Below are positions 39 through 39,766 of a stretch of 64,000 bases of DNA, piece after piece (positions within the stretch are counted from its first letter, which is position 1; each line of letters opens with the position of its first letter). Position numbers and translations under genes: made by a program. Source of the stretch: Gammaproteobacteria bacterium (GTDB taxonomy: Bacteria > Pseudomonadota > Gammaproteobacteria > UBA6429 > Thiohalophilaceae); contig JAPHRJ010000056.1 of NCBI GenBank assembly GCA_026196045.1, positions 1 to 64,000 on the forward strand, read 5' to 3'. The notes under the pieces are model-generated. The model was not told the origin of the DNA, did not search any database, and worked only from the letters and a program-made list of their open reading frames with translations.

Positions 39-102
39 GTCCAACAAACATTTATACCCCATGCTGAACTGCGCACAGCGTATAAATGCTTAGATGTTAG
101 GC
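39..102 (+). other. attC recombination site of a preceding gene cassette
   Basis: The site starts with GTCCAAC (39-45, consensus RYYYAAC) and ends with GTTAGGC (96-102, consensus GTTRRRY). Between them CATTTATAC (49-57) pairs perfectly with GTATAAATG (80-88), giving the extrahairpin shape that integron integrases recognise. Its 64-bp length fits short attC sites. The next gene starts 15 bases after the core, as usual for a cassette. Bases 1-38 would be the tail of the previous cassette. No integrase gene or attI is in the window. Confidence 0.75.
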
Positions 103-116
103 GCTAAGGAATAAAT

Positions 117-809
117 ATGCCAACAAAACAATCAACACCAACAGAAACAGATCGTGCTGAGATTGTTTTAACGCAAGCTAAATCGTCAATAAAGCACTTT
201 AGGGAAGCATTTGCTACCGTAAGAATGGCGAGGAAAGCTTCAGGCCCACCTACCGCAGGTGAACAAGATCTTATAAGAGCATCATTAACCTTTGCTGCCG
301 CTGGCTTAGACTCTATTTTAAAAGAACTCATAAAAGGGTCTATAAAAGCACTTGCAGAAAAAGACACTGACGTCCAAAAAGGACTTGAAGAATATGCAAG
401 ACGTCAACTAAGAGAAGAGACAGATGGTTCATTTGCAAAAAATAGCGCAAACTTTATCGCTAAATTACTAGTTTCACCAAAACCATATGAGCAATTGGTC
501 GAAAATTATACTATCCATTTAACGGGCAGTAGCTTGCAATCGGTTGACCAATTATTTAAAGCATCCAGCGCATTAGGGATAACAATCAAAATAGTAAATG
601 ATAAAAGTAAAGAACTTCGTGAAATCTTTGAAATAAGAAATAAAATCATTCATGAGCTTGATGTTAGATTTGATATAACTCATGGGCAAAAATCTAGAAA
701 CTCTAGAACAAAAAAAGGTTTGGATGAAATGTCGGACTTACTGCTAAAAGTTGCGGCTGAATATATAAAAGCGGTGAATCAGAAGCTTATAAAGGCTGCT
801 GAGAAATAA
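117..809 (+). CDS. HEPN-like cassette protein, possible RNase or abortive-infection type
   Basis: A soluble, mostly helical protein of 230 residues. Near residues 182-190 it carries EIRNKIIHELD, which fits the Rx4H motif (R-NKII-H) of HEPN domains. That superfamily includes many RNases of toxin-antitoxin, abortive-infection and phage-defence systems. The motif sits in the last third, followed by a long terminal helix, as in many HEPN folds. The start is supported by AAGGA at 106-110, six bases before the ATG. It lies directly after an attC core and only 20 bases before the next gene, so both seem to travel in one cassette. The AT-rich sequence and many lysine codons differ from the chromosomal genes. 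No MNT nucleotidyltransferase partner is present. A HEPN assignment from one motif is tentative; the role in defence is inference. Confidence 0.6.
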   Translation: MPTKQSTPTETDRAEIVLTQAKSSIKHFREAFATVRMARKASGPPTAGEQDLIRASLTFAAAGLDSILKELIKGSIKALAEKDTDVQKGLEEYARRQLREETDGSFAKNSANFIAKLLVSPKPYEQLVENYTIHLTGSSLQSVDQLFKASSALGITIKIVNDKSKELREIFEIRNKIIHELDVRFDITHGQKSRNSRTKKGLDEMSDLLLKVAAEYIKAVNQKLIKAAEK

Positions 810-829
810 ATGCATACAAGGGTATTATA

Positions 830-1177
830 GTGAATTCAGGTTCTAGGGCATGTATTGCTTATATCGCAGCAGGCTTATGCGGCTCAAGCAGTTCGCATGT
901 CTATGACTATTCACAATCAAAATATATAAATATCAGCGGTAGTGTAAATTCTGACAATGTAAATATATACGATTATGATCGAGGCTGTCATGTATCCGGC
1001 TCGCCTAATAGTTTATATGACTACTGCAATAGTTCTCATATTCAACTAAGAATGAATGGTTCACAATTCAGTGGCTACGACTATCATTCAAGCAATCATT
1101 TTAGTGGTAACGTGAATGGTAATTCAGTGTCTATTTATGACTATGAAACATCTTCGCATTACAATTACAATGTATAA
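830..1177 (+). CDS. YDY-repeat protein of unknown function (cassette-borne)
   Basis: A 115-residue protein made almost entirely of short repeats. YDY occurs at residues 25-27, 47-49, 63-65, 83-85 and 103-105, at spacings of 22, 16, 20 and 20. Between them lie Ser/Asn/Gly-rich stretches with alternating small and hydrophobic residues, for example SGNVNGNSVSI. This looks like two short beta strands per repeat, so a small beta solenoid or sheet is plausible. The first ~18 residues are weakly hydrophobic but no clear signal peptidase or lipobox site is seen. The start is GTG, preceded by AAGGG at 819-823. It follows the HEPN-like gene by 20 bases with no attC between, so the two may be co-expressed. 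I recognise no family, and the protein could act as a partner or antidote or be unrelated. Confidence 0.6.
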   Translation: MNSGSRACIAYIAAGLCGSSSSHVYDYSQSKYINISGSVNSDNVNIYDYDRGCHVSGSPNSLYDYCNSSHIQLRMNGSQFSGYDYHSSNHFSGNVNGNSVSIYDYETSSHYNYNV

Positions 1178-1179
1178 AC

Positions 1180-1237
1180 GCCTAACAATTCGCTCGTGTG
1201 GGACGCTTGCTTCGCTGCGCGCCCCACAGCTTAAATG
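1180..1237 (+). other. truncated attC closing the cassette
   Basis: GCCTAAC (1180-1186) fits the left attC core and starts three bases after the stop codon of the YDY gene. Stem halves GTGTGGGACGC and GCGCCCCAC follow around a short loop. The site runs to CTTAAATG, where a G^TTRRRY core would be expected, but after this G (1237) comes GTATTTGGGG instead. The right core is therefore lost, and the array seems to end here. Confidence 0.65.
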
Positions 1238-36199: not shown

Positions 36200-39100
36200 A
36201 TGCGTACATTATTTAAAAAATTCACTCTTAGCCTGGCTACCAGCCTGTATATTCTTATGGCAAGCCCGGTGATGGCCGAAGATACTGAACTCTTTATTGG
36301 CTTAAGCGCTGGTACAAATGAAGTGCGCCCTAATATTCTTTTTATTATTGATACCTCGGGTAGTATGGATGGTGATGTCATCGTGCCCACTGGAACGTAT
36401 CAACCAGGGACAACTTACTCAGGGGCTTGTAGTTCTTCTCGCTATTATTACAGCACCTCTGGCAATCCCCCTAACTGTAGCTATACCACCTCCTATATAC
36501 CTGTCGCTGATTACCATTGTGCTGATGCCTCCTCAGCACTGGGAAGCACTGGTAGCGGCTATTATGTCGGTCGGCATGCACGCTATAGAAATAGCTCGCC
36601 TGATTACTGGACCAGCTTTTATAGATATTATGGTGACCAATTCGAATGTGAAGCCGACTATGGTAACCATGGTGATGGCACCGCTGGCGAAGTATACCCT
36701 GCCAATGAATCCAATGGTGGCCCATGGAACTCAACCGACACCAACAGTATCTCCTGGACCAGCACCGGATCTATCTACACAATATACACGGCCAATTATA
36801 TCAACTTTTTGAATACAGCAGGTAATAGTGAAACCTGGACTCGCCTGCAAGTTGTCCAGCATGCGTTAAAAAATATTATCGACAGCACTTCCGGTATTAA
36901 TGCGGCATTAATGCGCTTTGATTCGAGATACTCCGGTAATGAAGGCGGCTACTTTGTTCAGGGTATGAAAGAAATGACGACTACCCCGACTGATACACGC
37001 ACGCCATTCAAGGCATCCATTGATGCGCTGGATCATGAAGGTTATACTCCGCTGGCAGAAACCCTGTATGAAGCCATGCTCTATTATCAGGGTAAAGCAC
37101 CTCATTTTGGTAACAATGCCTTACCAGATGGTAATGTTGCTGAAGTGATTGTTAATTCTTCTGATGTTGCTGCTGATCCAGATCTTGTTGTTGGTAATTA
37201 CAAAAGCCCGATTGAATTTCAATGTCAGAAAAACTTTGTCGTATTACTGACGGATGGTACCCCAGTCAATGACGATGATGCTGATACGCTAGTCAACACT
37301 ATCCCTAACTTTACTACCCTTACCGGAAATGGCACTGCATGCGCTCATTCCGCAGATAACTGCCTGGATGAAATTGCCCACTTCATGTATGAAACAGACC
37401 AAGATCTTAAACAGGGCGATCAAAATGTGTCTACCTACACCATCGGTTTCGCTACTAACCAGACTTTACTGTATGATACGGCCCTCAAGGGAGGGAGTAC
37501 TGGTGGTATAGGGGGTAGCGGCTATTTTCTTGCTAACTCACTTGAAGGACTAACCAGTGCTTTTACGTCCATTATTACGAATATTCTCGCGATTAATTCA
37601 ACCTTCGTGGCACCGGCCGTTTCAGTCAATGCCTTTAACCGCTTAACTCATCGAAATGAGCTATATTTTGCCCTCTTCCGTCCGGAAGAAAGTACACGCT
37701 GGTCCGGTAATCTTAAGCGCTACAAGTTAATGCGCAGCGACCCGCTTGATCTAACCTCAGAGCTCATTGTCGCGGATGTTAATGATGAAGATGCGGTTGA
37801 TCCAGCAACAGGTTTCTTCAAAGATACGGCACAAAGTTACTGGAGTAGCACCATTGATGGCAGTGATGTATCCCTCGGTGGTGCAGCAGAAAACTTGCCG
37901 TTGGACCGAACTGTGTATACTTATACCGGTGCAACTGCAGCTAACAACTCGCCTCTTAATATTGATACTAACAAACTGCATGAAGACAACGATGTATCTG
38001 ACGCCGGTGGCACCGGCACCCTGACCAATACTTTACTTGGGCTAGCGGCTACCACAACCGATGCAGATCGTATCGAGCTTATTAAATGGGCTCGCGGTAT
38101 TGATATCCATGATGATGACGAAGATAATTCAACAACGGATGCTCGTCAGTTCATAGCGGACCCACTACATAGTAAACCCAATGTGGTCACCTATGCGGGT
38201 ACGGATGAGACCGATCTGGATGTTACCGTTTATATAACAACCAATGAAGGTCATTTACATGCCATTGCCGCAGAAACCGGTGTTGAACAGTTCTCCTTCG
38301 TTCCGACCGAGTTATTGCCTAACCTTAATGTCATGAAAATTAACCAAAGTACCGGCTTCCATACTTATGGGCTAGATGGCCCTCTAACCACCTGGCATAA
38401 CGACCTCAATAATAATCTCAAGCTCATGGACAGTGCTGGTAATATTGATACTGTTGACAGTGTTGAAGAACACATCTACCTGTATTTCGGCATGCGCCGT
38501 GGGGGCAATAACTACTATGCCCTGGATGTCACAAACCGTAATAGTCCAAAACTGAAATGGGTTATCAAAGGTGGTGTTGACGGTGGTGACTTTGAAGAAC
38601 TGGCACAAACCTGGTCAAAACCTACCTTAGCTAAAATTATGTTCAATGGTCACCCTGAGAATGTGCTAATTTTTGGTGGTGGTTATGACACAACTCAGGA
38701 CAATGCAAGCTTGCCTGCAGATGACGTGGTTGGCCGCGCTATTTATATCGTCGATGCCGATACCGGTGTTCGTTTATGGTGGGCGGGTCCTACCGGATCA
38801 GGTGCAAACCTGGAACTGGCAGATATGAAAAATAGTATTGCCGCTGATATTAAACTTGTTGATAGCAATCTCAATGGTGTTATCGATCGTTTATATACCA
38901 CCGATCTGGGCGCCCGCGTCTGGCGTGTTGACCTGGATGAAGATCATACTGGTAATGATGCTAATACGTTAGCTACAGCCGGTGCCATCGCGGACCTGGG
39001 TGGTGCTGATGCAGAAAACAACCGTCGCTTCTATTACGCACCCAGTGTCTCCTTTGCTGCTAGACATGGTGAGCGTTTTTATGCCATCGCCGTTGGATCA

Positions 39101-39766
39101 GGTTATCGCTCACATCCTCTGGACGCGGTTATTCAGGATCGATTCTACATGATCCGTGATACAGATATTGATGTGGGTCCACCAAAAGATGCCGATGGTA
39201 ATCCAACATCATATACAACACTAACTGAGGCTGATCTTTATGATGCGACAGATAATACCATTGGTGAAGGTGATCAGACTCAATCGGCTGCAGCCACTTC
39301 CAGTTTAACTTCATCCCATGGCTGGTATTTTGAACTCAATGAGCTGGATGGTAGTTACATAGGAGAAAAAGTGATGTCATCTCCAGTAACTTTTGCCGGT
39401 GTCATTATATTCCCGACCTTCACCCCAGTAGCATCAACGGATTCCACCAGTTGTGCACCAAGCCAGGGAACATCTTATGGTTATGTAGTCAGTCTGTATG
39501 ATGCTACTCCGGTATTTAACTATGATAGTAACCCTGACCTAACTAGAGTTGACCGACGTACTGAGCTTAAAGGACTACCAACTGAGCCTTCTATTATCTT
39601 TGTAGAAGGTGGTATGACGGCTTTCTTTGGTACACAACAGTTGCCTAAAGGCAACAATACAACAGGGTGCACAGACTTAACATGTTTGCATGAACAGAGT
39701 GAAGGCAAACAAGGTGGTCGTGATACAAAATATATTACTGAGTCAGTGGATATAAGAAATCCATAA
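36200..39766 (+). CDS. pilY1: type IV pilus tip adhesin and assembly protein PilY1
   Basis: A 1188-residue secreted protein. The ATG at 36200 is preceded by GAGGTG at a good distance; an ATG four codons upstream is less likely. A signal peptide ends near VMA, residue ~26. A von Willebrand factor A domain begins at NILFIIDTSGSMDGD near residue 45, with the MIDAS motif DTSGS. The C-terminal PilY1 beta-propeller (residues ~650-1060) has a calcium loop DSNLNGVID near 888, equivalent to the site that controls pilus retraction in P. aeruginosa. It follows the small secreted protein by 54 bases and ends at a strong terminator. Confidence 0.93.
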   Translation: MRTLFKKFTLSLATSLYILMASPVMAEDTELFIGLSAGTNEVRPNILFIIDTSGSMDGDVIVPTGTYQPGTTYSGACSSSRYYYSTSGNPPNCSYTTSYIPVADYHCADASSALGSTGSGYYVGRHARYRNSSPDYWTSFYRYYGDQFECEADYGNHGDGTAGEVYPANESNGGPWNSTDTNSISWTSTGSIYTIYTANYINFLNTAGNSETWTRLQVVQHALKNIIDSTSGINAALMRFDSRYSGNEGGYFVQGMKEMTTTPTDTRTPFKASIDALDHEGYTPLAETLYEAMLYYQGKAPHFGNNALPDGNVAEVIVNSSDVAADPDLVVGNYKSPIEFQCQKNFVVLLTDGTPVNDDDADTLVNTIPNFTTLTGNGTACAHSADNCLDEIAHFMYETDQDLKQGDQNVSTYTIGFATNQTLLYDTALKGGSTGGIGGSGYFLANSLEGLTSAFTSIITNILAINSTFVAPAVSVNAFNRLTHRNELYFALFRPEESTRWSGNLKRYKLMRSDPLDLTSELIVADVNDEDAVDPATGFFKDTAQSYWSSTIDGSDVSLGGAAENLPLDRTVYTYTGATAANNSPLNIDTNKLHEDNDVSDAGGTGTLTNTLLGLAATTTDADRIELIKWARGIDIHDDDEDNSTTDARQFIADPLHSKPNVVTYAGTDETDLDVTVYITTNEGHLHAIAAETGVEQFSFVPTELLPNLNVMKINQSTGFHTYGLDGPLTTWHNDLNNNLKLMDSAGNIDTVDSVEEHIYLYFGMRRGGNNYYALDVTNRNSPKLKWVIKGGVDGGDFEELAQTWSKPTLAKIMFNGHPENVLIFGGGYDTTQDNASLPADDVVGRAIYIVDADTGVRLWWAGPTGSGANLELADMKNSIAADIKLVDSNLNGVIDRLYTTDLGARVWRVDLDEDHTGNDANTLATAGAIADLGGADAENNRRFYYAPSVSFAARHGERFYAIAVGSGYRSHPLDAVIQDRFYMIRDTDIDVGPPKDADGNPTSYTTLTEADLYDATDNTIGEGDQTQSAAATSSLTSSHGWYFELNELDGSYIGEKVMSSPVTFAGVIIFPTFTPVASTDSTSCAPSQGTSYGYVVSLYDATPVFNYDSNPDLTRVDRRTELKGLPTEPSIIFVEGGMTAFFGTQQLPKGNNTTGCTDLTCLHEQSEGKQGGRDTKYITESVDIRNP

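Follow-up and report, generated by a model that had tools for sequence, protein, structure and literature searches.

At the start of contig C77 of a genome whose gene content points to the Gammaproteobacteria lies an integron cassette which carries a HEPN gene (ORF1) together with an independent second gene (ORF2). The explanation that we favour, with a confidence somewhat better than even for the whole of it, is that a chromosomal integron here carries a gene cassette with two ORFs, probably the final one of its array; most likely this cassette is an ordinary defence-type one, holding one HEPN RNase and a passenger gene which moves independently. The window, by which we mean the whole stretch of DNA analysed, consists of bases 1–64000 of contig C77 (80,416 bases), window base 1 being contig base 1, and the genome comprises 2.7 Mb in 151 contigs. 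The cassette is thus located at the very start of the contig, a place where an assembly break inside a cassette array would be expected.

The first attC site and the integron integrase

A complete attC, that of the preceding cassette, is present at 39–102 on the forward strand, with R'' (GTCCAAC) at 39–45 and R' (GTTAGGC) at 96–102, and the cassette studied here begins at about position 97. The site is 64 nt long. Folding gives an imperfect hairpin of −26.9 kcal/mol for the bottom strand, as against −13.2 kcal/mol for the top strand. It was the sole site in the 64-kb window which passed a filter for R''/R' boxes plus hairpin, and 3 of 200 block-shuffled windows contained any attC-like site passing that filter, a comparison which holds for a length-normalised score, since under a length-biased score the shuffles equalled the real site. 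The complete attC that the preliminary description had placed upstream of the cassette is thus confirmed by its boxes, its hairpin and the shuffled windows.

An integron integrase in the flanks had been proposed as a check. It was absent from the window, but a profile search of the same genome detected one on contig C11 (17182–18123, minus strand; TIGR02249, 456 bits against a cut-off of 265), so that an attC and an integrase in one genome together support the reading as an integron cassette. The 5' end of the integrase gene is 377 bp from the end of this 18,500-bp contig, and attI and the first cassettes would sit past that end. The integrase frame is extended at its N-terminus, spanning 424–440 aa against the 315 positions of the model. 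These observations fit one integron divided over contigs C11 and C77, the join between them being putative. We also sought a direct link between the two contigs through relatives, which was rejected because RimO, the neighbour of the integrase, is not adjacent to the genes downstream of the cassette in those relatives that have them. A single pattern match to a further attC in the genome, on contig C148, was unconvincing by eye, and out of 12 matches to the R' pattern in the genome an attC-like fold was seen in contig C77 alone. No plasmid match was found to either attC or to the palindrome described below.

A second attC interrupted by a REP-like palindrome

The second attC of the preliminary description stands in part. 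At 1180–1237 (forward strand) there are an R'' box (GCCTAAC) and hairpin arms, and the stem is strong in a fold of these positions, but the site is incomplete, as a palindrome of 85 bp (1238–1322), which the preliminary description does not mention, breaks into its R' box directly after the first G. The arms of the palindrome, 1238–1266 and 1294–1322, are 29 nt each and 97% complementary. After CTTAAATG, GTATTTGGGG stands in place of the R' box, and there the palindrome starts. When the palindrome is removed, the joined flanks read ...CTTAAATG and then TTCTGCG, which would place the palindrome at G^TT, the cutting point of the integron integrase; this is suggestive only, TT after the G having a chance expectation of 1/16. 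The sequence past TT is a poor R' consensus, as we would expect at the end of an array.

Elsewhere in this genome, contigs C91 and C112 together carry three related palindromes, shorter at 66 bp, and the 85-bp palindrome is therefore regarded as a repeat of the REP kind. Rfam matches to microRNA families at 1232–1327 were far under their gathering scores, and were discarded as caused by the palindrome. An attC interrupted precisely where recombination takes place would make the cassette immobile, a possible way in which arrays become fixed.

ORF1 encodes a HEPN protein

Two genes lie 20 bp apart, as described earlier, and no attC intervenes: ORF1 occupies 117–809 and ORF2 830–1177, both on the forward strand. 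ORF1 starts 14 nt past the first attC, with AAGGA upstream, and encodes a protein of 230 aa which matched PF18735 (HEPN_RiboL-PSP) with 31.4 bits against the Pfam cut-off of 28.4. Two of its relatives, L055 (35.4) and L058 (30.7), also passed this cut-off. The Rx4H motif noted in the first product is indeed there, as R174-NKII-H179, and both R174 and H179 were invariant in all 10 aligned sequences, which include relatives down to 25% identity; the other invariant residues of this alignment were D51, R54, A55, F59, A62, G63, D65, F171, L181, D182 and R197. Such invariance of the motif across distant relatives argues that catalysis is probably retained.

The AlphaFold model of ORF1 (pLDDT 81.4) was all-helical, with helices at 12–39 and 47–82, a helical insert at 84–162, a helix at 164–184 bearing R174 and H179, a loop, and a last helix at 199–229. 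HEPN domains commonly contain an insert that separates helix 2 from helix 3, and their motif lies towards the end of the latter (PMC3710099); the helix order of ORF1 fits this arrangement on both counts. On the other hand, a structure search with the model gave no significant match (best E 0.31 in the PDB and 0.083 among viral structures); an annotated phage HEPN protein was among its matches with TM 0.49/0.53 and E 1.7. Similarly, none of the solved HEPN structures matched ORF1 in sequence at E ≤ 5. The structural check of the HEPN fold proposed earlier is hence weakly positive overall, the helix order agreeing and the structure search giving no significant hit. Judged from its sequence, ORF1 is a probable stand-alone HEPN RNase of the RiboL-PSP family. 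No phage record matched the protein of ORF1 or of ORF2, and a comparison of ORF1 with PADLOC-DB 2.0.0 gave no match above noise.

Relatives of ORF1 were found at 15 loci, with identities from 49% to 25%, most of them being distant at 25–32%, and they come from Streptomyces genomes and plasmids, a Holophagae MAG and IMG/VR contigs. The closest full-length relative (L055, 49% identity) is on a prophage-like contig, where the HEPN gene stands alone, with a phage integrase gene on one side and a DnaB helicase gene on the other. The relative L058 shares its contig with an N6/N4 DNA methylase gene, and genes for an NYN-domain protein and for DUF1156 accompany a short form of the HEPN protein in L030. 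Taken together, such neighbourhoods are in keeping with a function in conflict with phage or foreign DNA. The short form itself (381–779, Holophagae, 133 aa) lacks everything between helices 2 and 3, AGLDSALKP being joined in frame to IFDARNQIIHELD. One candidate relative (L010, in genome G190) was rejected, as the open frame there is that of a Lon-like protease.

Within the class, the HEPN profile was matched in 1 of 369 genomes, the window's own. This genome has a second PF18735 gene (L018, G000:C62, about 38997–39569, minus strand), which is followed by an ORF of 91 aa without a Pfam match and by a GmrSD_N/DUF262 gene. In another genome (G435, L017) a DUF262 gene precedes the PF18735 HEPN gene, and transposase-like genes flank the pair. 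The GmrSD_N/DUF262 neighbours at both places agree with the ParB-type operon reported for the RiboL-PSP family. We found no relative inside another integron, nor any attC-like site in the seven closest loci tested.

ORF2 encodes a YDY-repeat protein

ORF2 begins with GTG and encodes 115 aa with five YDYxxxx(H/Y) units, preceded by a conserved N-terminal segment of the TRACIAYIA type. Its AlphaFold model, of very high confidence (pLDDT 94.3), consists of an N-terminal helix and 10 strands, and no solved relative was apparent in the PDB, where the best match (E 0.013, TM 0.45) was a designed protein. No antitoxin or defence family was matched by ORF2. A weak similarity to DUF5334 (PF17268) was seen in the final YDY repeat of ORF2 and in that of two relatives, all matches being under the cut-off and about 20 residues long.

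Relatives of ORF2 occur at six loci with 56% to 25% identity. Two are solo cargo on prophage contigs, namely L025 (1657–2007, 56%), beside portal and terminase genes, and L054 (768–1163, 45%), near a phage integrase gene. Others belong to gammaproteobacterial genomes (L026, 55%; L027, 35%) and to Novosphingobium (25–28%), and one chromosomal relative lies between genes which we assigned by eye as YdcF-like and O-antigen-ligase-like. Of the genomes searched, 1 of 40 from the order had a YDY gene, namely the genome of the window itself, as did 3 of 369 from the class. ORF2 is a small predicted beta protein, probably cytoplasmic, and belongs to a mobile family distinct from that of ORF1. This YDY family, for which no Pfam model scores over its cut-off, is small, mobile and uncharacterised, and is seen in prophages, in chromosomes and in the present cassette.

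Origin, function and independence of the two genes

How two unrelated ORFs came to share one cassette is a question of origin only. They may be two former single-gene cassettes fused through loss of the attC between them, since each gene is solo elsewhere, but the 20-bp spacer holds no remnant of an attC and capture of a two-gene fragment explains the arrangement equally well. We consider fusion a possible though not the probable origin, and it is compatible with our favoured explanation.

According to that explanation, ORF1 would be inactive or unexpressed during normal growth and, like other HEPN enzymes, would cut RNA through R174 and H179 in a metal-free manner. A phage or a stress may trigger it and thereby halt translation, which would make it an abortive-infection or dormancy factor. 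A consensus scan revealed no forward sigma-70-like promoter ahead of ORF1, and it would therefore be expressed from the integron promoter, through transcription that reads into the cassette when this is near attI; ORF2 would be carried on the same transcript but would not be needed by ORF1. An anti-phage or defence role of ORF1, as argued from its family and neighbours, is plausible.

The lack of an evident promoter also bears on a different and less probable proposal, that ORF1 is a housekeeping-stress or catalytically idle HEPN protein rather than a defence RNase, and the cassette a silent passenger. Integron cassettes in distal positions are mostly silent (PMC11023631), and with its terminal attC interrupted this one may have lost its mobility. 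Retention of the Rx4H motif down to 25% identity argues against an idle enzyme, as does the placing of relatives close to a DNA methylase gene and as cargo in prophages.

It had further been suggested that the two genes encode a pair which must stay together, such as a toxin and its antidote. We searched for both window proteins by tblastn, and none of 21 loci contained HEPN and YDY genes together: the HEPN gene was without ORF2 in 15 of 15 loci, a number which includes near copies and hence fewer independent cases (L056 appears to be the same as the Streptomyces plasmid L021, both having a record length of 151,949), and ORF2 was without the HEPN gene in 6 of 6. The claim of an obligate pair is not supported by these counts, as homologues of the first gene occurred without the second in every locus found within the searchable data, and the pairing was rejected on co-occurrence. 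A toxin–antitoxin or two-part defence system, with the HEPN RNase as toxin and the YDY protein as its inhibitor or sensor, is favoured by the 20-bp spacing of the two genes, their common orientation and the lack of an attC in between; some two-ORF cassettes are toxin–antitoxin systems (PMC8618304), and both families are found as prophage cargo. But, apart from the separate distribution of the genes, ORF2 has no match to an antitoxin or defence family and is unlike the MNT nucleotidyltransferase, the best-known antitoxin partner of HEPN proteins (PMC3710099), and there is no promoter-like site before ORF1, while integron toxin–antitoxin cassettes have promoters of their own (PMC11023631). A toxin–antidote pair is therefore unlikely. 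Still less credence is given to a new two-part cassette defence in which the YDY protein is phage sensor or inhibitor of the HEPN RNase, though if true it would make the YDY family a new class of phage- and integron-encoded conflict protein.

Comparison with known systems

The nearest known system is the RiboL-PSP HEPN family (PF18735; Anantharaman et al. 2013, PMC3710099), with which ORF1 shares the profile match, the Rx4H motif and the predicted order of helices. Members of this family are reported either as fusions to endoRNase L-PSP or as sharing an operon with a gene of the ParB type (PMC3710099), whereas ORF1 is solo and accompanied by an unrelated ORF. Neither integron HEPN cassettes nor integrons as stores of anti-phage genes are new, both being already described. 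A description of HEPN domains encoded by integron cassettes (PDB 3jrt) dates from 2013 and proposes that they are dormancy-inducing RNases (PMC3710099); like ORF1, the 3jrt protein is an Rx4-6H HEPN in a gammaproteobacterial integron cassette, but Pfam places ORF1 in another HEPN family. Integrons as anti-phage gene stores were reported by Darracq et al. 2025 (reviewed in PMC12409362), and the anti-phage cassettes of sedentary integrons treated there resemble ORF1, a putative defence gene, in that a small defence-type gene is kept as a cassette. If ORF1 indeed protects against phage, it would add a PF18735 HEPN to the defence genes borne by integrons, and would support the role of integrons as defence-gene stores outside Vibrio.
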